Source of the DNA: Longimicrobiales bacterium
GTDB lineage: Bacteria > Gemmatimonadota > Gemmatimonadetes > Longimicrobiales > Gaopeijiaceae
NCBI GenBank assembly: GCA_028278645.1
Contig: JANQDZ010000047.1
Coordinates: 62,001-126,000 of the forward strand
Reading direction: 5' to 3'
Length of the DNA: 64,000 nt
Made by a program: the position numbers and the translations under genes. The notes under the pieces are model-generated. The model worked only from the letters and a program-made list of their open reading frames with translations, ran no database searches and was not told the DNA's origin. This document shows positions 21,230 to 54,833 of this stretch, in pieces (position 1 is the stretch's first letter; every line of letters begins with the position of its first letter).

Positions 21230-22112
21230 CACTGTAGCCTCTTCCAGGACCTTCGGCCAAGACCTGAATCCTGCCGTAGTACGTTGGTCTAGGGGGCCTC
21301 GTTTTCGGGGAAAAACCCAATCCATCGAGGACAGAGTACTTCTCGAATTCCCGAAGGTCGACAGAGCTATGTTTCGCAACCATCTATCCGACAGTGACTC
21401 GCCCGGGCCTTCGGACTCAGGGATGGTGATTCGCCATCCGTCGACTTTCGGGGATGCACCGATGGCCACGTAGTTGCTTCTTCCCAGCCCGACCAAAACC
21501 GAACCGACTTCCAGCTCCCGTCGCCGATGGGCCGTGCGATTCAGGGCCCATCCCATTCCGATTCCACCCAGATCCAACGCCAAGCCCGGCGTCAGGAACC
21601 GGACCGTCCTCGATTCTCCATTTAAAGCGATGTTGGACCAGCCGCTCTGGGCTTTGGCTTCCGACGGCTCTTCCTCGGATCGGAAGCTGTCCGACTCGCT
21701 AAAGCACCCCAATCCTCCACCAAGGGGCCCACGGTGATCTCTAAGGCGCCGCCGGTGCGAGCGCTGTGGGAGAGGGTTTCTTTCAGGATCTGAAAAACAA
21801 CTGAATTGATGGTGACGGGACGGTGGGAGGCCCCTTTGTTGATTCGCGGCCCCCCCTCGTGGAGCGGTATCGGCTCAGGTCGGACTCCACCCCAAGTTTC
21901 TCGGCAAAGGCCGCTTCAAAGAGTTCTGACGCACGGCCGGCGTTTTGTGCATAAAGAAACACCTGGGCGGTGGTCCCCATGACCGGGCGTTGTTGGTGGA
22001 ACAGGGAATCGGAAGCCCCATTCGCTGGACCGGGATCCGGGGAGAAGAAGGGATCAAAATGCAGCCCCATCTCTACGATGAGCGGTTCTGCCAGGGCGTC
22101 CTCCACCGTCAT
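21230..22112 (-). pseudogene. apbE pseudogene with two frameshifts (FAD:protein FMN transferase)
   Basis: Three minus-strand frames together rebuild an ApbE protein. First, from 22112: VMGTTAQVFLYAQ and then VESDLSRYRSTRGG. The second part, about 21840-21690, is in another frame and reads RPVTINSVVFQILKETLSHS, then ARTGGALEITVGPLVEDWG. The third, from about 21700, gives GLALDLGGIGMGWALNRTAH and GRSNYVAIGASPKVDGWRIT. Order and spacing match ApbE, so two indels broke the gene. The C-terminal DPRTG region is corrupted. The functional copy in this window is at 48189. Confidence 0.75.
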
Positions 22113-22197: not shown

Positions 22198-24606
22198 CTA
22201 GCCGCTTTCCTGTGGCTCCAACCTCAGGGTGGCCACCGCCCGAGCCTCCACCAGGCCCCGGTCCAGTGGGAGCAACCAGAGTTTGCCTTCTTGCCATAGC
22301 TCCAGCTGGTCGAAGGAGTGGGCGTTTGCCGGGTAACCCGATTGCCCGCCGGGAATGATGAACCCACCAGAACCGTTGGGATCCGCCATGTCTACCACGT
22401 GTCTCTGGCTAGGTCCCCAAACCACACTGAAGGGGGGTCGGGAACCTATGGGGGCCGCGACGTTCACCGAGTAAGGCCCGCCCATGCGGGGGACCTCCGA
22501 GCGACCGAACTTGAGAAGACCACCCAACACCGGGACCTGTGCCAGAGGATGGTCCAGGACCAGCTGGTGAGCCTCCCCCCAGGGTAGGTCTGCGTAGGCT
22601 GCGGCTTCCCGGGCGGCCTCCACGGGGAGTTCTGGCGGGAGCCGAAGTTCCCCGGACAACAAGCCTTCCAGCGCCTCCTCCAGGATCCAGTCCGGGAAGT
22701 GGTCGGGCTCACCTTGGTAGTAGTGTTCCCCGAAACTCCGGTGGAGGAAGGTCCACCACGTGTGGAAGAGGGTGGCTTCGGTGCTTTCCAGATCCGCCAT
22801 GCGGTCCCAGACATCCAATCGGTCGGCCAGGTCATCCAGATCTGCGCTTCTGAAAGCCTGCACCGCCCGGTGGATGTGTTTGTCCACAAAAGCGCTTCCA
22901 GTGTTCATCTGAATCGCCAGGAGGCTCTCGGCATCGTGGCGGTCGGTGGCTTCGATGAGCTCGGTGATTCGCTGTGCCCGATAGGGGCTGAACCAGCCAC
23001 CATCGCTGACCATGCGGGCTGTTTCGTCCCTCCCCTGCGCGTTGTTGGCGGTGGTGATGTAGCCACGTTCTGGCGCCAGGAGATGCGGCTTCTTGTCGAA
23101 GGGAAGCCAACCCGTCCAGTCATGCTCACCAGTCCATCCCGGGACCGGGAGGTGAGGCGGTTTCCCTGACGCCCGGATGGGAACGCTCCCGCCCATCCAA
23201 TAGCCCCAAGCCCCGGCCGTATCGGCGAAGATCACGTTCTGATGGGGATTGTCGAACTGGCGCATGGCCCGGATGAACTCGTCAGCGTTTCGGGCCCGAC
23301 CCATGTCGATGAGGGCCTGGAAGGTGCCGGCCGGCTGATGGGCTACCCACCGGAAGGCCAGCAACTCTTCGGCGGCCCTATCATCCACCGGGGTGACGAT
23401 GGGGCCGTGGTGAGTCGACCGGACCTCCATGACCACCGGGTTCTGGCCCCGGACCTGGATGATCTCCTCCCTTGTCTGGAAGGTGCCGAAACCTCCCGGC
23501 GCCAGGTACTCGTCCGGGTTATCCGGGTTGACCCGTTCGATGAAAAAGTCCGAGTCGTCTACCATGGCGTTGGTGAACCCCCAAGCCACCGCGGTAGAGT
23601 GCCCAGCGGCGATGCCAGGGGCTCCGGGGAGACTCATGCCTACGACATCGTACCCGGGGGCGTGAAGCCCCATCAGATACCAGATATTCGGGGCTCGCAT
23701 CCCCAAGTGCATGTCGTTGGCGAGGAGGGGTTTTCCGGATTTTGATCGGTCGCCTCCCACCACCCAGGAGTTGGACGCCTGAACTGTGCTACCGAGCTCC
23801 AGGACCTGGGCGATGTCCTCCGAGATGGAAGCCAAGGTCAGCGCGTCCAGGGAAACCGGGGGAGGGAGGGGGGACTCGGACCCGGGGCCGCCGTCCACGC
23901 TCACCCCGCCGGCTCGGATTTCATCAGCTCCGCGCGCTTCTTCTGCCGGCCATCCTTCGACGATGGTCACGCCCCAATCCGGATACTTGGGCATGAGCGG
24001 CGCCAAAGCCTCGTCACCGAGTTTCTCCCGGGCCGCTGCCAGGTTCAGCCCGGTCTGATAGTCGGAGAGATCCCAGGCCATGAGCTTTTCGATGCCCTGG
24101 GACAGGACCGGGTCCCACGGTTCGGGTTTGAAGCGAAGAAGGAGGAACTCGGGAGGCAGCAGGCCCTCCCACCCTTCGATAGCCAGGTTCACCCCGACCG
24201 TATAGGCCCCCATCTGTTGGTAGATGGGAGTGTTGGTGAAGGGAATCCCCGCCTTTGCTGCTTCCTCCATCCCGATGGTCCTGAGGAACCGATCCTGTTC
24301 GATGGTGGCTTCGCCGAAGATCTCGCTCAAGCGGCCCTGGAGTACTCGCCGGAACATCTCCATCTGCCAGAGCCGGTCCCGTGCGTGGACGTAGCCCTGG
24401 GCCAGGAAGAGATCCCTCATGGACTCGGCGAAGATGTGAGGCACGCCCATGGAGTCGTAAAGGACCTCCACAGGCTCCCTCAGGCCGGCCAAAACGAGCG
24501 TTTCGGACTCGAGGTCCGGGCCGGTTCGGATCTTGTGGATGCCGAAATAGCCGAGCCCGGAAGCCAGAATCAAAAAGACCAGCATCAGCTTGATCGTTTT
24601 TTTCAT
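22198..24606 (-). CDS. Penicillin acylase-family Ntn hydrolase
   Basis: ATG 24606 follows GAGGGAAG, giving 802 residues; an upstream ATG at 24633 would only add nine residues. An N-terminal signal/anchor lies at residues 3-22. The alpha-chain-like part contains VLYDSMGVPHIFAESMRDLF and YVHARDRLWQMEMFRRVLQG, hallmarks of the family. Autoprocessing should occur before Ser278 in QASNSWVVGG, the N-terminal nucleophile of the beta chain. Substrates of such periplasmic acylases include acyl-amides, acyl-homoserine lactones and beta-lactams; none can be chosen from sequence. Confidence 0.9.
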   Translation of the reverse strand: MKKTIKLMLVFLILASGLGYFGIHKIRTGPDLESETLVLAGLREPVEVLYDSMGVPHIFAESMRDLFLAQGYVHARDRLWQMEMFRRVLQGRLSEIFGEATIEQDRFLRTIGMEEAAKAGIPFTNTPIYQQMGAYTVGVNLAIEGWEGLLPPEFLLLRFKPEPWDPVLSQGIEKLMAWDLSDYQTGLNLAAAREKLGDEALAPLMPKYPDWGVTIVEGWPAEEARGADEIRAGGVSVDGGPGSESPLPPPVSLDALTLASISEDIAQVLELGSTVQASNSWVVGGDRSKSGKPLLANDMHLGMRAPNIWYLMGLHAPGYDVVGMSLPGAPGIAAGHSTAVAWGFTNAMVDDSDFFIERVNPDNPDEYLAPGGFGTFQTREEIIQVRGQNPVVMEVRSTHHGPIVTPVDDRAAEELLAFRWVAHQPAGTFQALIDMGRARNADEFIRAMRQFDNPHQNVIFADTAGAWGYWMGGSVPIRASGKPPHLPVPGWTGEHDWTGWLPFDKKPHLLAPERGYITTANNAQGRDETARMVSDGGWFSPYRAQRITELIEATDRHDAESLLAIQMNTGSAFVDKHIHRAVQAFRSADLDDLADRLDVWDRMADLESTEATLFHTWWTFLHRSFGEHYYQGEPDHFPDWILEEALEGLLSGELRLPPELPVEAAREAAAYADLPWGEAHQLVLDHPLAQVPVLGGLLKFGRSEVPRMGGPYSVNVAAPIGSRPPFSVVWGPSQRHVVDMADPNGSGGFIIPGGQSGYPANAHSFDQLELWQEGKLWLLPLDRGLVEARAVATLRLEPQESG

Positions 24607-24932
24607 TCTTCCCTCGTTACATCCGATACCCACCAGAAACGGATCCCGCGGTTACATGTCGGCTCCCAGCGCTACGTGGTCAACCCCTGCAACGGACGTC
24701 CCTGAAAGGAGCGGTCGGGGCGGCATTTGAGTCGTCCTGGTTGGAATGCCATCTGTTACGCCGAAAGTGACGGTTCCGGGCAGGGCGGACCAGGCATTCA
24801 GAACCCGCAGTGTCCATTCTCCCACATTCCGCTTGGAGTAGATGGGTGCCATTGTTGACGAGGAAGTGGACGCCGTTGTCCAGGGCTCACCCACAGCATC
24901 CCATTCGCGGTCCGAAAGAAGGAGCAAGGTTC
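24607..24932. other. Intergenic region between divergent genes
   Basis: These 326 bases hold the promoters of the divergent acylase (minus) and SGNH (plus) genes. A minus-strand frame near 24800 reads NVGEWTLRVLNAWSALPGTV, faintly like a proprotein-convertase P-domain, but it is short, has no start context and could be chance. No clear promoter motif was found. Confidence 0.3.
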
Positions 24933-47160: not shown

Positions 47161-48144
47161 ATGGCTCTTTTTGTGCCCGGACCCATCAGCCGCCGGTCCT
47201 TTCTCGCCGGCACCGCGGCCGCCCTTCCAGCGGTGTATTCCTTCGCCCTATCCGGCTGCGGGCCGGACCAGGCCTCCGATGAGGCAGTGGGCACCGACTC
47301 GCTGGATTCACTCTTCCGGATTTCTTTAGCCGAGTGGTCTTTGCACCGTGCCCTGAATGCTGGGGAGCTGAACAACCTGGACTTCCCCCGGGTGACCAAG
47401 GAGGAGTTCGGAATCGAAGGAGTGGAGTACGTGAACTCCTTCTTCAAGGACAAGGCCGAGGACCTCACGTATCTGGCCGATCTAAAAACCCGGTGCGACG
47501 GTCTCGGGGTCACGAGCGTCCTGATCATGTGCGACGGTGAGGGGGCCCTCGGTGACCCGGACCGGGCGGCCAGGAACCAAGCCGTTGAGAACCACTACCG
47601 CTGGGTGGAAGCCGCCCGATACCTGGGATGCCATTCCATAAGGGTCAACGCCCAGTCCCAGGGTACGCCCGAGGAGCAAAAAGATCTGGCCGCCGATGGC
47701 CTCCGTCTCCTTTCGGAGTTCGCCGACGACAGGGACATCAATGTCCTGGTGGAGAACCATGGGGGCCTGTCCTCCAATGGGGCTTGGCTCGCCGGGGTGA
47801 TGGAGGCGGTGGATCACCCACGCTGCGGCACCCTCCCCGATTTCGGGAACTTCAATCTCGGAGGCGGAGAGACCTACGATCGGTATCTGGGGATGGAGGA
47901 GCTCATGCCGTATGCCATGGCCGTGAGCGCCAAGTCCCACGTCTTCGACGAAGCCGGCGACGAGTCGCAGATGGACTTCACCCGCATCATGCGGACAGTT
48001 CTCAAGGCGGGTTACCGGGGATGGGTCGGAATCGAGTACGAGGGCTCGGAGCATACGGAGCCGGAGGGAATCCGGTTGACCAAGGCACTGTTGGAACGGA
48101 TCCGAATCGACCTGGCTCTGGAGTTCTCGGCGTCCGCCGAGTAG
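47161..48144 (+). CDS. Tat-exported TIM-barrel sugar isomerase/epimerase
   Basis: ATG 47161 follows GGAGGAGGA; TTG 47155 is an alternative. The 327 residues start with a Tat signal, [19 protein letters not shown], and a lipobox-like SGC. The remainder is an AP-endonuclease-2-like TIM barrel: [32 protein letters not shown] (metal-binding Glu/His) and [10 protein letters not shown]. Such xylose-isomerase-like enzymes act on sugars or keto-sugars. It opens the keto-glycoside-type cluster that runs to 54833. Confidence 0.85.
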
Positions 48145-48188
48145 GGCGACAACGCCATTGTCTCGATCGAGTTGAACAGGAATCGCTA

Positions 48189-49259
48189 ATGGATCCGTCC
48201 ACGCGCATCGCCCGGAAGATGGCGGCCCTGTCCGCCATGGGCTTTCAGCGTGTGGAGTCCCCGGCAATCCCGCCGGAATTGATCCCTTTGGGTGACGGTC
48301 GATACAAGGTTACCTGCGGCCAACCTTCCATGGGGACGCTCGTTTCGATCACCGGTCTTCACCAGTCCTCCGGTCTCATCCAGGAAGCTGCCGGTCTCGC
48401 TTTCAGGGAGATGGTCCGGGTGGTCAACCTCCTGAACCGGTACGATCCCTCCTCGGCCCTCTCCTACTTGAACACAGAAGGTGTCATCGACGGCCCCCCG
48501 CCGGAGTTGACGGCGGTGATGTGGCAGAGCCGGTACTTTAACCAGGCCAGCCAGGGGGCTTTCGACGCAACGGTCCAACCTCTGGTGGACCTGTTCCGGA
48601 GAAGCCTGGGAGGAAGCTACGGCCAGGACTCAGCCCCCGTCGGACCGACGGAAGCTGAACTCCTCGAAGCCGTGTCCCTGGTGGACGGACGGAATGTGGG
48701 CGTGGGGGAGAAGAAGATCCGTCTTCAAACGCCGGGCATGGGCGTGACGCTGGATGGGATCGCCAAGGGGTATGTGGTTGACCGGATCGCCCAGGTTCTG
48801 ACCCAGCAGGGTTTGCAGGACTTCCTTATCGATGCCGGAGGGGACATCCGGACTTCGGGCGTGAGGGAAGACGGGCAGCCGTGGCGGGTCGGAGTGCAGG
48901 ATCCGCAGAAGCAGGGTGATCTCCCCGATGTCATCGGTCTCACGAACGCCTCCGTCGCTACCTCGGGAAGCTACGAAATCTATTTCGATCGCGAGCGGAC
49001 CCATCACCACATCGTGAGCGCCCTGACGGGCGGCTCACCCCGAACAAGTCAAAGCGTTTCGGTTGTCGCCCCCACCACTCTGGCTGCAGACGCCCTGGCC
49101 ACCAGTGTGTTTGTGATGGAGCCCGGGCGGGGCGTTTCATTTATCGAGTCTTTGCCTCAGTGCGCTTGCCTCATCGTCGACGAGCAAGGTCGGCAATGGA
49201 GATCGAGCGGATGGCGAAGCGCCACAGACCTTCCCACCCCTAAGGCAGGGATCCCATGA
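48189..49259 (+). CDS. apbE: ApbE: FAD:protein FMN transferase
   Basis: ATG 48189 gives 356 residues. Motifs: QPSMGTLVSITG, RVVNLLNRYDPSSALSYLN, GVTLDGIAKGYVVDRIAQVL and FLIDAGGDIRTSG, all typical of ApbE, which transfers FMN from FAD to Thr of target proteins using Mg. There is no signal peptide, so it may act inside the cell or have its true start elsewhere. It overlaps doxX by four bases (ATGA). No FMN-acceptor protein (D-x-x-T-G-A-T type) is seen in the cluster. The pseudogene at 21230-22112 is its relic paralogue. Confidence 0.9.
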   Translation: MDPSTRIARKMAALSAMGFQRVESPAIPPELIPLGDGRYKVTCGQPSMGTLVSITGLHQSSGLIQEAAGLAFREMVRVVNLLNRYDPSSALSYLNTEGVIDGPPPELTAVMWQSRYFNQASQGAFDATVQPLVDLFRRSLGGSYGQDSAPVGPTEAELLEAVSLVDGRNVGVGEKKIRLQTPGMGVTLDGIAKGYVVDRIAQVLTQQGLQDFLIDAGGDIRTSGVREDGQPWRVGVQDPQKQGDLPDVIGLTNASVATSGSYEIYFDRERTHHHIVSALTGGSPRTSQSVSVVAPTTLAADALATSVFVMEPGRGVSFIESLPQCACLIVDEQGRQWRSSGWRSATDLPTPKAGIP

Positions 49260-49774
49260 ACGGTGCATCGAAGAACCTGGCTGGCAAGTTTCCGGACTAC
49301 GGGACACTTCAGCTGATCGCACTGGTGAGCATGAGGATGCTCATCGGCTGGCACTTCCTCTACGAAGGAGTGGCCAAGCTCACGAACCCATACTGGACGT
49401 CGGCAGGCTACCTCCAGCAATCGGAGGGGTGGTTTTCCGAGATGTTCAACGACCTGGCCAACAACCAGTCGGCCTTGCCCCTGGTGGACAACCTCAACCA
49501 GTGGGGCTTGGTGTTGATCGGTCTGGCCCTTCTGGTGGGGTTCTTCTCCCGGACCGCAGCGGTGTTCGGGATCGTTGTTCTGGCCCTCTATTACGTGGCC
49601 GCGCCTCCCTTCCCGGGTCTCGAGTATGCCATGCCCGCGGAGGGAAGTTATCTGATTGTTAACAAGATTCTCATCGAACTGGCGGCACTCCTGGTGATCG
49701 TGGTCTTCCCCACGGCTCATCGGGTTGGACTGGATCGGTTCTTCTTCCGCAAGCGTTCCGCTGAGACCATGTGA
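49256..49774 (+). CDS. DoxX-family membrane protein
   Basis: The 172-residue product starts at an ATG that overlaps the apbE stop. It has four membrane helices and the family motif RMLIGWHFLYEGVAKLTNP with the conserved FLYEG.AK.. near residues 30-45. DoxX proteins are often linked with thiol/quinol redox chemistry or terminal oxidases. Coupling to apbE suggests a shared redox role, possibly taking electrons from the sugar dehydrogenases. Confidence 0.85.
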   Translation: MNGASKNLAGKFPDYGTLQLIALVSMRMLIGWHFLYEGVAKLTNPYWTSAGYLQQSEGWFSEMFNDLANNQSALPLVDNLNQWGLVLIGLALLVGFFSRTAAVFGIVVLALYYVAAPPFPGLEYAMPAEGSYLIVNKILIELAALLVIVVFPTAHRVGLDRFFFRKRSAETM

Positions 49775-49816
49775 ACGGCCCTGACCAGCCGTAGGGCGTT
49801 ATCAGGAGGCAGTAGC

Positions 49817-51394
49817 ATGAGTGACGAGATCAAGAAGGAAGAGATAGGTCAGGATCCGAGTCGGAGAGATGTCCTGAAAGCTCTGGCGTCCGTTCCGGTC
49901 CTCGGCGTTTTCTTTGTTGGTTGGTATCAGAAGAAGCTGAAAGCCGATGCCAAGCGCGAAGCCATCATGTCCGAACTCGGGATCGCGGAGGGGGCGCCGG
50001 CGGTGATCCCCGATGCCATCTCGAGACCTCCGGGAGACCGGATTCGACTCGGGATCATCGGAAACGGTGGGGAAGGGGAAGCTTTGGTTCGGTTCGCCGG
50101 TTTCGCCCACCCCGAGTGGATCGAGGACCAGAGGGAGGCGGCGGCAAGGAATCCCCGGAACAGGGGCCTCGAGACGTTCATGTCCCAGGACGACCTCAAC
50201 ATCGATCTCACGGGAGTGTGCGACGTCTTCGATGTCCGTGCTCAGCGTGGGCTGGACGCGGCGGCCAACAAGGTGGGACCCACGGCCGAAAACTCCCGGG
50301 GTCAAGCGACGCGCTATCTCAGGTACCAAGACATGTTGGAAAGTGACGATGTGGACGCGGTCCTCATCGCCACCCCGGACCACTGGCACGCTCAGATGTG
50401 CATCGACGCCGCGGCGGCAGGGAAGCACATCTACGTCGAAAAAGCCATGACCCGTGAGGAGGAAGAAACCCATCAGATGTACGATGCGGTGAAAAACTCC
50501 GACGTCGTCTTCCAGTTGGGCCATCAGCAGCGGCAAACGGAAAGCCACATCAAGGCCCGTGAGGTCATCGAAGCCGGGATTCTGGGTGATATCACCCTCA
50601 TCGAGACCACCACCAACCGGAACGATCCCTGGGGTGCCTGGGTCTGGGACATCCACGAAGAGGGGAACGAGAACACCATCGACTGGGAGCAGTTCGAAGG
50701 GCCTGCTCCCAACAAGGTGCCTTTCGACCTCGACCGCTTCTTCCGCTGGAGGAAGTACTTCGACTACGGGACCGGCCTCTCCGGCGACCTGTTCTCCCAC
50801 GAGTACGACGCCATCAACCAGATCATGGATCTGGGGATTCCTAAGACGGCTGTTTCGTCAGGTGGGATCTACCACTTCAAGGACGGCCGGGACGTGCCCG
50901 ACACATGGCAAGCTGTCCTGGAGTACCCCGATCGGGATCTTACCCTGGTTTACAGCGCCACTTTGTGGAATGGGAACTGGAGGGGGCGGGTATTCATGGG
51001 CCACGACGCCACCATGGAAGTGGACAACGGCCTCTCTATTCGCGCCGAGGGGAGTTCCACCCGGTTCCGGGAGAAGATCGACGAGGGCATCATCGACACC
51101 TCCCGGCCCATGTTCACGTTCCAGCCCGGGTTCACCGGTCTGGACGCCATCACGTCGGCTACGGCTGAATACTTCGCCCGGCGCGGCCTCCTCTATACGT
51201 ACCGCGGAGGGCGGCTCACCAGCGCCTACCATCTCCACATCGCCGAGTGGCTCGATGTGATTCGGAACGGTGGCGATACCAGCTGTAACATCGAGCGAGG
51301 GTACGAGGAGGCCATCTCCTGCCACATGGCCACCAAGGCCTACCTCGAGAAGCGTGAGGTGCAGTGGGATCCGGTAGCCCGGAGAATTGTGTGA
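49817..51394 (+). CDS. Tat-exported Gfo/Idh/MocA-family oxidoreductase
   Basis: The 525-residue protein begins with a Tat-type signal, SRRDVLKALASVPVLGVFFV. The NAD(P)-binding Rossmann motif is IRLGIIGNGGEGEALVRF, followed later by AVLIATPDHWHAQMCIDAA and HIYVEKAMTREEEE with the EK.. catalytic Lys. Exported members often use tightly bound NAD in keto-sugar chemistry. It sits between doxX (42 bases) and the MFS gene, separated from the latter by a long inverted repeat. Confidence 0.9.
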   Translation: MSDEIKKEEIGQDPSRRDVLKALASVPVLGVFFVGWYQKKLKADAKREAIMSELGIAEGAPAVIPDAISRPPGDRIRLGIIGNGGEGEALVRFAGFAHPEWIEDQREAAARNPRNRGLETFMSQDDLNIDLTGVCDVFDVRAQRGLDAAANKVGPTAENSRGQATRYLRYQDMLESDDVDAVLIATPDHWHAQMCIDAAAAGKHIYVEKAMTREEEETHQMYDAVKNSDVVFQLGHQQRQTESHIKAREVIEAGILGDITLIETTTNRNDPWGAWVWDIHEEGNENTIDWEQFEGPAPNKVPFDLDRFFRWRKYFDYGTGLSGDLFSHEYDAINQIMDLGIPKTAVSSGGIYHFKDGRDVPDTWQAVLEYPDRDLTLVYSATLWNGNWRGRVFMGHDATMEVDNGLSIRAEGSSTRFREKIDEGIIDTSRPMFTFQPGFTGLDAITSATAEYFARRGLLYTYRGGRLTSAYHLHIAEWLDVIRNGGDTSCNIERGYEEAISCHMATKAYLEKREVQWDPVARRIV

Positions 51395-51398
51395 CGGC

Positions 51399-51485
51399 GG
51401 CTGAGGGGCTCCCGGCGCTCACTTCGGAGAGAACCGTTCGCTTCGCTTCCGGACACTCCTCAGGGAGACCGGGAGCCCCTCGGCC
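51399..51485. terminator. 17-base inverted repeat between oxidoreductase and MFS genes
   Basis: GGCTGAGGGGCTCCCGG (51399-51415) pairs with CCGGGAGCCCCTCGGCC (51469-51485) with one G-T wobble, enclosing 53 bases. It begins five bases after the stop at 51394. There is no T-run. It could lower read-through, protect the upstream mRNA or be a REP-like element. Confidence 0.5.
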
Positions 51486-51542
51486 GAACCACAATCCCCC
51501 GTTCTTGTTCTTCCATAGTAGGCGACAAACAGGGAGGGTGAA

Positions 51543-52760
51543 GTGAGCGCGAAGACTCGACTCGGTATCATGATGTTCCTCCAGTACGCCATCTGGGGGG
51601 CATGGGCTCCGGTCCTCTCGGTGTACCTCCTGGACGACCTGGGCTTCACCGGATTCCAGGCCGGCGTGATCTACGCTCTGCTTCCGTTGGCCACCATTCT
51701 CTCCCCGTTTATCGGAGGGCAGGTGGCGGACAGGTACTTCTCATCCGAGAAGGTCATCGCCTTCCTTCAATTCACGGGTGGAATACTCCTCATCGCCTGC
51801 GCCCAGGCCACCGGCTTCACGACTATGGCCTGGATCATGTTCTTCTACTGTCTCCTCTACGCCCCGACGCTGGCCCTGACCAACTCGGTGGCCATGATCA
51901 ACTTGAAGGACTCGGAGAAGGAGTTCGGGGCCATTCGGGTTTGGGGGACCATCGGATGGATCGCCGCCGGCCTCATCCTCTCGGGGTGGCGGACGGTTGG
52001 TGGGGGGAACGAGTCCCTGATGATGGGTGGGGATATGCTGTTCCTGGCCGGTGTGGCGTCCATCGTCATGGCCCTCCAGGCCTTCATGCTCCCCAAGACC
52101 CCTCCGCAGAAGGAGGGGGTGAAACCGTGGGCATTCCTGGAGTCCATGAAGATGCTGAAGTCGAAGAGCTTCGCCGTCTTCATCGCCATCACCTTCGTGG
52201 TTTCGACGGAACTGGAGTTCTTCTACATCCTCACGGCGCCCTTCCTCCAGTCCGACGCCATCGGCGTGGCTCCGGCCAATCTTCCGGCGGTCATGACCAT
52301 CGCCCAGGTGGCAGAGATCTTCGTGATGGCGTTCATGTTGTCATGGGCGCTGAAGCGCTACGGCATGCGGAAGACCCTGGCCATCGGCGTGGTAGCCTGG
52401 CCGATCCGGTACGTGATCTTCGCAATCGGAGGGCCGGCCTGGCTGGTGATCGCTTCATTGGCGCTCCACGGATTCTGCTACGTGTTCTTCTTCGTGGCCG
52501 CCTTCATCTACGTGGACAAGGTCGCCCCGCCTGACATCCGTGCGTCGGCCCAGAGCATGATCGCCATTGTGGCCTTGGGGCTGGGTAGGTTCCTAGGCAG
52601 CCTGTTTGCGGGGAAGATCCAGGAGATCTTCACCACCGACGCCGGAACCGACTGGACAGGTGTGTTTTTGGTGCCATGTGCGCTGACGTTCCTTTGCGCG
52701 GTGGCTTTCTTGCTCTTCTTCCGGGAGCAAGGCGGGTCCGAAGCGGAAGCAGTTGCGTGA
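51543..52760 (+). CDS. MFS transporter of the nucleoside/sugar NupG type
   Basis: GTG 51543 follows GGGAGGGTGA. The 405 residues have 12 helices. RLGIMMFLQYAIWGAWAPVL near the start and FIYVDKVAPPDIRASAQSMI near helix 10-11 match nucleoside:proton symporters of the NupG/XapB group, a family that in keto-sugar clusters is annotated as a sugar or nucleoside importer. Context suggests uptake of a sugar product. The substrate is not determined. Confidence 0.85.
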   Translation: MSAKTRLGIMMFLQYAIWGAWAPVLSVYLLDDLGFTGFQAGVIYALLPLATILSPFIGGQVADRYFSSEKVIAFLQFTGGILLIACAQATGFTTMAWIMFFYCLLYAPTLALTNSVAMINLKDSEKEFGAIRVWGTIGWIAAGLILSGWRTVGGGNESLMMGGDMLFLAGVASIVMALQAFMLPKTPPQKEGVKPWAFLESMKMLKSKSFAVFIAITFVVSTELEFFYILTAPFLQSDAIGVAPANLPAVMTIAQVAEIFVMAFMLSWALKRYGMRKTLAIGVVAWPIRYVIFAIGGPAWLVIASLALHGFCYVFFFVAAFIYVDKVAPPDIRASAQSMIAIVALGLGRFLGSLFAGKIQEIFTTDAGTDWTGVFLVPCALTFLCAVAFLLFFREQGGSEAEAVA

Positions 52761-52788
52761 TCTACAATCAACCAAAGGTGAGTGTTTG

Positions 52789-54045
52789 ATGGGTGCGAAA
52801 AGACTCGGGATCGGTTTTGTGGGAGGTGGTTTCGTCGGCAAGTTCCACATCCGTTCCTTCGTTGGGGTGAGAGACGCCGATGTGCTGGGGGTTGTGGGCG
52901 GGGATGACGACTCGGCCGAGGAGGCCGCCGCTCTGGCTCGGTCCTTGGGCGTGGGGGACGCGAAGGCCTTCGATTCCATCACGGACATGGTGGCCGATCC
53001 TACCATCGATGCCATCTGGATCTGCGCTCCCAACTTCACCCGTTTGGAAGTCATGGAGGAGATCGTCGAGGCCCTCGAGTCGGGGAAGGGGGAGCTCGTC
53101 GGGATCGCGTGCGAAAAGCCGTTGGGTCGAACGGCGGCGGAAGCTCGGAAAATGCTGGAGCTCGTGAAACGAGCCGGTGTTCAGGACGGGTACCTGGAGA
53201 ACCAACTCTTCTCTCCAGGAGTCGTCCGAGGAAAGGAGATCCTCTGGCAACGGGGAGCCTCCCTCACCGGAGCGCCTTTCCTCGCCCGGGCGGCGGAGGA
53301 GCACTCAGGGCCGCACATGCCCTGGTTCTGGGAAGGTGAGCTTCAGGGCGGTGGCGTCCTCAACGACATGATGTGCCACTCGGTGGAGGTGGCACGCCAT
53401 CTTCTCACACCTCCCGGCTACCCAAGGGATTACCTCACGCCCATGAAGGTCACGGCCCAAATGTCGTGCCTGAAGTGGCAGCAACCGAGGTATGCAGAAC
53501 TCCTCGCCGTAGGCAGTGACGGCATGCTGGATTACGAAAACCGTCCCTCCGAAGATTTCGCCCGGGCCCTCGTGGAGTATCACGATAAGGCCGGGAACGT
53601 GAAGATCGTGGAAGCCACCACCTCATGGTGCTTCGTCGGAGCCGGCCTCCGCTTGAGCATGGAGCTGTTGGGGCCCGAGTATTCCATGTCCCTCAGCTCG
53701 CTGGATTCGGGGCCCAAGGTCTTTTTCAGCCGGGAAGTGCGGGGAGATGCCGGTGAGGACCTGGTGGAGAAGCAGAACGCGGAAGTCGGCTTGATGCCGG
53801 TTGTGAGTGATGAGGAAAGCGAATACGGATACGTTGGCGAAAACCGGCACATGGTCCGCTCGTTCCTGGATGGGAAACGTCCTGATGAGAACTTCGAGGA
53901 CGGGGTGAACGTGGCCGAGCTCCTCATGACGGCTTACATGAGCGCTGAACAGGGAAGGACCATTAAATTCCCTCCGTCCGGTTTGGCGGACTTCGTACCG
54001 GCGGTGGCTCGAGGTGAGTGGAACCCGAAGAAGGCCGATAAGTGA
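52789..54045 (+). CDS. Gfo/Idh/MocA-family oxidoreductase, cytoplasmic
   Basis: ATG 52789 follows AAAGGTGA. The 418-residue protein has the Rossmann motif GIGFVGGGFVGKFHIRSF, then CEKPLGRTAAEA with the family EKP, and HSVEVARHLL. There is no signal peptide, unlike the other oxidoreductase of the cluster. It would act on the imported sugar. The MFS importer gene directly precedes it (28 bases). Confidence 0.9.
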   Translation: MGAKRLGIGFVGGGFVGKFHIRSFVGVRDADVLGVVGGDDDSAEEAAALARSLGVGDAKAFDSITDMVADPTIDAIWICAPNFTRLEVMEEIVEALESGKGELVGIACEKPLGRTAAEARKMLELVKRAGVQDGYLENQLFSPGVVRGKEILWQRGASLTGAPFLARAAEEHSGPHMPWFWEGELQGGGVLNDMMCHSVEVARHLLTPPGYPRDYLTPMKVTAQMSCLKWQQPRYAELLAVGSDGMLDYENRPSEDFARALVEYHDKAGNVKIVEATTSWCFVGAGLRLSMELLGPEYSMSLSSLDSGPKVFFSREVRGDAGEDLVEKQNAEVGLMPVVSDEESEYGYVGENRHMVRSFLDGKRPDENFEDGVNVAELLMTAYMSAEQGRTIKFPPSGLADFVPAVARGEWNPKKADK

Positions 54046-54101
54046 AATGCAAGTCCAGGCCCCGGAAACGTCGTGGCCCGTAAACACATAAAGGATCCGA
54101 G

Positions 54102-54833
54102 ATGAGAGCTTTGAGACTGGGTTTGGCGCTGGTGATCGTGGCGGGAATCCTGCTTTTCCGGTACTTCGGATCGGACGATCCACAGGCCGCTGAGGCAGGC
54201 GCCGCGCCCGCCGATGTGATGGAGGTGTCCGAAATGGAGGTGCCCGAGTTGGAGATGGTCCAGGTCCCGGAGGGATATGAGCGGCTGCTGGGTATGTGGA
54301 ACGACCGGTACCACAAAGGCGGTTGGAATCACTACGGCCCAGGGTACTTCGAGCTGGATCCGGCCACCGGGGTCCTGAAATCCCACGGTGGGATGGGGCT
54401 GTTCTGGTACAGCGTGAAGGAGTTCACCGACTTCGTTCTGGAGTTGGATTTCCTGTGTACCGACGCGTCGACCAACTCAGGCGTGTTTGTCCGTGTCCCG
54501 GGTGTGCCCACGAGCGACGACTACATCTATCACTCGTTCGAGATCCAGATCTACGATGCCGGAGAAGGGATCCACATGACCGGGGCGGCCTACGACGCGG
54601 AAGCCCCGACCCATCTGGCTTCGAACCCTCCTGGGGAGTGGAACCACTTCAAGATCTCCTTCGTCGGGAGCCGCCTCCAGGTCGAGCTGAACGGTGAGGC
54701 CATTCTTGATTGGGAGGCCGAGGGGCGAGGGAAGGTCGAAGATTTTGCGCCGGGTGGATACATCGGCCTACAGAACCATGACGACAGGTCTCCCGTCTAC
54801 TTTAAAAACATCATCATCAAGGACCTCAGCTGA
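54102..54833 (+). CDS. DUF1080 (3-keto-disaccharide hydrolase-type) exported protein
   Basis: The 243 residues start with a membrane/signal helix (4-20) and an acidic linker. The DUF1080 domain occupies about 60-243: WNDRYHKGGWNHYGPGYFEL, then KEFTDFVLELDFLCTDASTN, SGVFVRVPGVP and PGGYIGLQNHDDRSPVYFKN. This concanavalin-like fold is used by periplasmic hydrolases of 3-keto-glycosides. It completes the cluster: isomerase, ApbE, DoxX, two oxidoreductases, importer and hydrolase. Confidence in the fold is high; specificity is inferred. Confidence 0.85.
   Translation: MRALRLGLALVIVAGILLFRYFGSDDPQAAEAGAAPADVMEVSEMEVPELEMVQVPEGYERLLGMWNDRYHKGGWNHYGPGYFELDPATGVLKSHGGMGLFWYSVKEFTDFVLELDFLCTDASTNSGVFVRVPGVPTSDDYIYHSFEIQIYDAGEGIHMTGAAYDAEAPTHLASNPPGEWNHFKISFVGSRLQVELNGEAILDWEAEGRGKVEDFAPGGYIGLQNHDDRSPVYFKNIIIKDLS

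Follow-up and report, generated by a model that had tools for sequence, protein, structure and literature searches.

An ApbE-DoxX-oxidoreductase gene core with a candidate flavinylation motif in a probable keto-glycoside cluster of a Longimicrobiales bacterium

The gene cluster

The window analysed here is a stretch of 64,000 nt from a Longimicrobiales bacterium (Gemmatimonadota; Gaopeijiaceae; assembly GCA_028278645.1, contig JANQDZ010000047.1, positions 62,001 to 126,000 of the forward strand), in which seven genes, A to G, form a cluster resembling those that process keto-glycosides. Three of these, encoding the flavin transferase ApbE (B), a DoxX-family membrane protein (C) and a predicted exported oxidoreductase of the Gfo/Idh/MocA family (D), are the main subject of this report. 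Free nicotinamide adenine dinucleotide (NAD) serves as a carrier in the cytoplasm, which raises the question of where an exported member of the latter family would deliver its hydride. The gene set proposed by the initial annotation, consisting of a TIM barrel, ApbE, DoxX, two Gfo/Idh/MocA proteins, an MFS protein and a DUF1080 protein, was confirmed by profile searches and an open reading frame check of the window, with all seven genes on the forward strand at the following window coordinates:

47161-48144, +: A, xylose-isomerase-like TIM barrel protein, predicted to be exported (PF01261, 99.7 bits; solved homologue 4ovx, 388 bits)
48189-49259, +: B, ApbE, FAD:protein FMN transferase (flavin adenine dinucleotide and flavin mononucleotide, respectively), signal peptide not seen (PF02424, 227 bits)
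49256-49774, +: C, DoxX-family membrane protein (PF07681, 30 bits)
49817-51394, +: D, Gfo/Idh/MocA oxidoreductase, predicted to be exported, probably anchored at its N terminus, predicted flavinylation target (PF01408, 51 bits)
49862-49867, +: Arg16-Arg17 of D, twin-arginine start (conservation at least 97%)
51143-51163, +: DAITSAT, residues 443-449 of D, candidate ApbE site, with Thr449 the candidate attachment residue
51543-52760, +: E, NupG-like MFS transporter (PF03825, 338 bits)
52789-54045, +: F, cytoplasmic Gfo/Idh/MocA oxidoreductase, no visible signal (PF01408, 61 bits)
54102-54833, +: G, 3-keto-disaccharide hydrolase family protein (DUF1080) with an N-terminal hydrophobic segment (PF06439, 114 bits)

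The stop codon of the ApbE gene and the start codon of the DoxX gene share the sequence ATGA (49256-49259), such that the four-base overlap described in the initial annotation is real. An alternative TTG start is possible for F at 52753. A search of Rfam yielded no match and a promoter scan no hit, and seven terminator-like sites were observed where 6.1 would be expected.

Conservation of the gene order

Public genomes were scanned with D, using search patterns that excluded the motif described below, and the best 80 of 222 relatives were kept; these lie in 79 loci titled as Gemmatimonadota, Aminicenantes, Calditrichota, Neomarinimicrobiota or Bacteroidota, or unplaced. Of the 72 references listed for each, the row sets A5 and A6 contain 47 and 41, together with the window, L089 and L090. 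Genes in these neighbourhoods, and the motif counts made from them, were called by a simple longest-open-reading-frame script. DoxX was immediately upstream of D in 71 of the 74 loci with at least 600 bases of upstream sequence, spanning five phylum-level groups. Of the three misses, two (L111 and L167) failed the gap rule although a DoxX frame closely precedes that of D, and in the third (L112) DoxX adjoins another copy of D. The isolate Carboxylicivirga linearis (L133) is among the carriers of the DoxX-D pair.

A survey of 395 Gemmatimonadota genomes, several of which are also in the public scan, found a D-type gene in 27. Strong loci, defined as those scoring above 800 bits, numbered 21, with upstream sequence available for 19; the order ApbE-DoxX-D was present in 18 of these, from five families and including the window itself, the remaining one (L176) having DoxX with a remnant of ApbE. 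In the other two strong loci, L194 and L044, the contig breaks off. All three genomes of the window's genus have the three genes in this order, as do two of g5 and one of g52; neither DoxX nor D was matched in the third g5 genome (G006), and the available g5 and g52 stretches yielded neither E nor F. Of 116 genomes in the window's family, the DoxX query had a match in 8, six of them strong, and all six have DoxX beside D. Distant relatives of D (L195-L203) also occur with DoxX, often as two adjacent D copies, and have a motif beginning with Glu in eight of nine cases. Six f11 genomes have DoxX-D with no ApbE in the short flanks available, one of which ends at DoxX.

All 27 D-containing Gemmatimonadota genomes encode an ApbE somewhere, as do 37 of the 42 other D genomes tested (including 6/6 isolates), which are part of the 57 loci lacking ApbE in the locus. 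Given the gene orders above, ApbE-DoxX-D is a conserved core, with the sugar genes as frequent companions, and the absence of ApbE-DoxX from related clusters, which the initial annotation had named as the outcome that would contradict its proposal, is not what is seen.

Among these companions, E is found no more than 900 bases downstream of D in 38 of 72 loci, and 35 of 65 loci have F no further than 3.5 kb downstream, whilst an A-type TIM barrel adjoins the D cluster in many loci. The A protein itself has the N-terminal sequence ISRRSFLAG, with LSGC further on, and is presumably a Tat (twin-arginine translocation) lipoprotein. The commonest families were DUF1080, MFS, Gfo and TIM barrels in the neighbour set A7 (76 of the 133 neighbours listed, taken from Neomarinimicrobiota and a single set of related loci), and Gfo, GH3, DUF1080 and TIM barrels in the set A8 (81 of 109 listed neighbours, from Bacteroidota loci). 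These families support a keto-glycoside pathway in general rather than a particular substrate.

The predicted exported oxidoreductase, its motif, ApbE and DoxX

The D protein starts with SRRDVLK and a hydrophobic segment, and in 71 of 75 D genes a twin-arginine pattern falls among the first 70 residues. As the window's genome has two matches to TatC, D combines both features expected of a Tat substrate and its export is predicted. Two domains, PF01408 and PF22725, score above their cut-offs, and the predicted fold aligns with 9m3d_B (Z score 34.1, root mean square deviation 2.3, 329 aligned residues); D is a Gfo/Idh/MocA protein with a Rossmann domain and a C-terminal alpha/beta domain. It also aligns with the glucose-fructose oxidoreductase 1rye_D (Z score 31.7, deviation 2.7, 326 aligned) and keeps the NAD-binding marks G79, G82, G84, D136, E208 and K209. 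The best sequence matches among solved structures were 8tdf and 8tdh (E value 6.7e-28), both glycoside 3-dehydrogenases of the BT_2158 type, although D scores 111.9 bits against the cut-off of 750 bits for the curated BT_2158 glycoside 3-dehydrogenase model (NF058561).

As far as the accessible text of the cited papers goes, the target motif of ApbE is given as D-x-x-[ST]-G-A-[ST] (PMC12052999) or D-[GAIQ]-[IALVF]-[ST]-G-A-[ST] (PMC10722498), and '[S/T]GA[S/T]-like' motifs are also spoken of (PMC8238504). D contains a near-exact motif of this kind, which the initial annotation had not reported: the heptapeptide DAITSAT, which has Ser in place of Gly. In an alignment of 81 D proteins, including that of the window, 80 reach this site and every one fits D-x-x-[ST]-[SGT]-A-[ST]. 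Asp at position 1, Thr or Ser at position 4 and Ala at position 6 are each present in all 80; position 5 is Ser in 72, Thr in six and Gly in two, and position 7 is Thr in 75 and Ser in five. Most D proteins therefore fit six of the seven published positions, the Gly being found only in the two (L146 and L161) that match the published motif exactly. Mutation of the Thr to Ala has been described as abolishing flavinylation, with that of the Asp to Ala having a minor effect (PMC12052999).

Among the oxidoreductases compared, the motif is restricted to the DoxX-linked D family. Across the 79 loci it is present in 74 of 75 D genes, the other (L105) stopping short of the site, and in 2 of 853 non-D genes (300,717 residues), or four of the 853 if a widened form is allowed. 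None of the 54 other Gfo/Idh/MocA genes at these loci has it, and nor do any of 22 paralogous open reading frames from the window's family; ten aligned paralogues without the motif are around 17 residues shorter in this region. No other gene of the window's cluster was found to have it when checked by eye.

The catalytic triad of ApbE is Asp-Ser-His, according to the accessible part of PMC12052999. Ser259, His273/274 and Asp301 are invariant in six ApbEs of ApbE-DoxX-D loci, within blocks that align with solved ApbEs (mapped by eye), and B thus has both the ApbE domain and the triad. No signal peptide was found in the window's ApbE, and the in-frame stretch preceding the Met is not hydrophobic; in the relatives L105 and L094 the reading frame is open for no more than three or four residues ahead of the start. 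When 68 ApbEs were placed in a tree, the 35 rows from ApbE-DoxX-D loci, some from the same genome, clustered together under midpoint rooting with a support of just 0.53. A neighbouring group of 12 has a NosR-like protein with FMN_bind and Fer4_5 domains adjacent in seven of eight scanned cases, the eighth neighbour (L086) being a beta-lactamase-family protein. Such Tat-signal ApbEs beside NosR-like FMN_bind/Fer4_5 proteins are those of L008-L018 and L029, from the window's family, confirmed for the same seven of eight neighbours. The other intact ApbE of the window's genome sits in an NQR locus; on these grounds another target for the window's ApbE was set aside, save for the possible distant one described below.

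Twin-arginine signals, scored with a pattern written after these signals had been viewed, were present in 11 of 12 NosR-type ApbEs and all eight that group with the NQR one. Of the 15 scorable ApbEs from ApbE-DoxX-D loci (L093 and L096 not being scorable), only that of L099 had the pattern (RRTFRVTAA), which was judged to lie at the start of the domain and to be false. A hydrophobicity test was positive for one of 18 rows from such loci (L102), and for 9/9 and 4/4 in two other groups; this test is weak, detecting only one of the 12 NosR-type ApbEs and missing their Tat signals. The nine ApbEs near D in Neomarinimicrobiota and L104 all have hydrophobic starts, and hence flavinylation there would be outside. 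Taken together, the neighbourhoods and signals indicate that ApbE adjoins its likely target in each setting, and where that target has a twin-arginine start, ApbE appears to have none.

The window also contains a second ApbE on its reverse strand (21338-21846), apparently broken, whose two pieces overlap but are read in different frames; a penicillin-amidase gene (22198-24633) lies upstream of it. An FMN_bind protein (392 aa frame; G000:C39:249522-249755), encoded on another contig away from both intact ApbE loci, is a possible distant second target.

DoxX is modelled as a helical membrane bundle, with a mean pLDDT (predicted local distance difference test) of 89. A haem in DoxX was considered and rejected, as the His at position 33 is replaced by Tyr in the Carboxylicivirga rows. 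The best hit of a fold search had an E value of 0.5, and GGCX and VKOR were among the weak rows, from which nothing was concluded.

The proposed electron route and its relation to known systems

These observations suggest that ApbE, DoxX and D make up a single redox unit within a 3-keto-glycoside pathway, in which D carries a tethered FMN and is wired to quinone, a reading to which we assign a probability of roughly 0.6. The signal-less ApbE would couple FMN to Thr449 while D is still in the cytoplasm, and the folded D would then be exported by Tat and held by its N-terminal helix. Outside, going by what is known of its family, D would oxidise a glycoside, probably at C3, using the NAD bound in its Rossmann fold. 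Since D has NAD-binding marks and the fold of an NAD-dependent sugar enzyme, the hydride would travel via bound NAD; from there it would pass to the tethered FMN, DoxX and the quinone pool, with no need for free NAD outside. Judging from their families, cleavage or isomerisation of the keto-glycoside would fall to the DUF1080 and TIM barrel proteins and import of the product to the MFS protein, with the cytoplasmic F then reducing it. The motif, the synteny and the ApbE point to the FMN step, whilst the synteny and an analogy with DoxD suggest that through DoxX. The initial annotation had proposed that electrons leave through a flavinylated or quinone-linked path; the synteny and the motif in D support this, and every testable prediction held, the mechanism itself being predicted.

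A number of observations weigh against this proposal. Neither an FMN pocket nor an FMN-NAD distance could be shown for D. Residues 439-448 have a pLDDT below 50, with Thr449 at the start of the following helix, and so no distance from motif to NAD is claimed. Position 5 of the motif is Ser or Thr rather than Gly in 78 of 80 D proteins, and replacing this Gly by Ala roughly halved flavinylation in the one enzyme studied (PMC12052999). In the distant family f11 the motif starts with Glu in eight of nine copies and position 5 is Ala in three of nine, although the final Thr is retained in all nine, and one paper terms the Asp essential (PMC10722498); L193 has DAVTTPT, with Pro for Ala. One Gemmatimonadota locus (L096, the same as L176) keeps D, with the motif DAVTSAS, and DoxX beside only a 28-bit remnant of ApbE, another ApbE being located elsewhere in that genome. 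Outside Gemmatimonadota ApbE is mostly not adjacent to D, and five D genomes, all records of metagenome-assembled genomes of 1.4-1.9 Mb, show no ApbE; as ApbE is common, its presence in a genome is in any case weak evidence. No His is invariant in DoxX, and none of the solved proteins is clearly related to it, a sequence search against solved chains giving no match up to an E value of 1.

Alternatively, D might balance its redox state by tightly bound NAD(P) alone, as do glucose-fructose oxidoreductase or NAD-dependent glycosidases, the conserved loop being catalytic or structural and ApbE serving another protein. The NAD-binding marks and the fold, including the similarity to 1rye_D, agree with this, and around 90 other positions of D are equally conserved, so conservation of the motif alone proves nothing. 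We nevertheless think it unlikely, since a match to the ApbE motif is far commoner in this loop than in other genes, ApbE is fixed beside DoxX-D in Gemmatimonadota and no other gene of the window's cluster was seen by eye to have the motif. Also unlikely, to a similar degree, is that D is flavinylated whilst DoxX acts as a membrane anchor or assembly partner, with the FMN electrons passing to a cytochrome or other carrier encoded elsewhere. Published flavinylated enzymes often use partners encoded elsewhere (PMC8238504, accessible text), and the DoxX found here has neither a known cofactor site nor a clear structural relative; however, no other neighbour of D is as constant across phyla, and this holds also in loci where ApbE lies elsewhere. 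It is extremely improbable that ApbE and DoxX are merely chance neighbours of sugar genes. The DoxX query did match few genomes of the window's family, but ApbE-DoxX-D is found repeatedly, in five families of Gemmatimonadota, and DoxX-D in five groups at the phylum level; this synteny rules out chance for DoxX in all the loci sampled and, in Gemmatimonadota, for ApbE as well.

If the proposed electron route is correct, covalent FMN would answer the question of hydride destination for a family found in five phylum-level groups. It would also add a new fold to the substrates of ApbE, suggest a function for one group of DoxX proteins, widen the ApbE motif to admit Ser or Thr for Gly and represent a new form of ApbE-based electron transfer. 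We put at about even the odds that this constitutes a new class of covalent flavoprotein, namely a sugar dehydrogenase with an NAD fold and an FMN tethered to a mobile loop as relay, which a dedicated ApbE lacking a signal matures in the cytoplasm, which Tat exports in folded form and which DoxX links to quinone. On this reading, Gemmatimonadota, Neomarinimicrobiota, Aminicenantes, Calditrichota and Bacteroidota would share an ancient respiratory route for oxidising keto-glycosides beyond the inner membrane.

The ApbE-type motif in D is new here. A literature search, covering few subscription papers and no preprints, retrieved no paper naming both DoxX and ApbE, and none of those listed joined ApbE to a Gfo/Idh/MocA target or came closer, slashed names not being searchable; the one source mentioning both ApbE and MocA is, judging from its title and abstract, an unrelated seaweed expression list. 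In the accessible text of two surveys of ApbE systems, the words DoxX (PMC8238504) and Gfo (PMC11334425) were not found.

Several known systems share parts of this arrangement. BT_2158-type glycoside 3-dehydrogenases are the closest solved sequences to D, which differs in being linked to DoxX and in having the motif. Glucose-fructose and aldose-aldose oxidoreductases are exported or export-related Gfo/Idh/MocA proteins with the same fold as D; in these, bound nicotinamide adenine dinucleotide phosphate (NADP) is recycled by a second sugar, and we know of no link between them and ApbE or DoxX. The DoxD/DoxA thiosulfate:quinone oxidoreductase has a DoxX/DoxD-type membrane partner of a quinone-linked enzyme, but its soluble partner and substrate are different, making this a resemblance at the family level only. 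The dehydrogenase of the Caulobacter LacABC system also differs from D, being a three-part enzyme that uses flavin and cytochrome c. LacABC with DUF1080 is the nearest known pathway, likewise involving membrane-bound oxidation of glycosides outside and a DUF1080 hydrolase (PMC9007349, accessible text). Extracytosolic proteins flavinylated by ApbE (NqrC, RnfG, NosR, DUF2271, DUF3570 and the fumarate and urocanate reductases) similarly have ApbE beside the target, a motif near D-x-x-[ST]-G-A-[ST] and a membrane electron partner, insofar as the accessible parts of PMC8238504 and PMC12052999 describe them; in contrast, D is a Gfo/Idh/MocA protein without an FMN_bind domain and with the Gly mostly Ser, its ApbE lacks an export signal and its partner is DoxX. 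The ApbE that acts on the soluble fumarate reductase of Klebsiella is also signal-less and flavinylates in the cytoplasm (PMC12052999), but whereas its target stays inside the cell, D carries a twin-arginine start.

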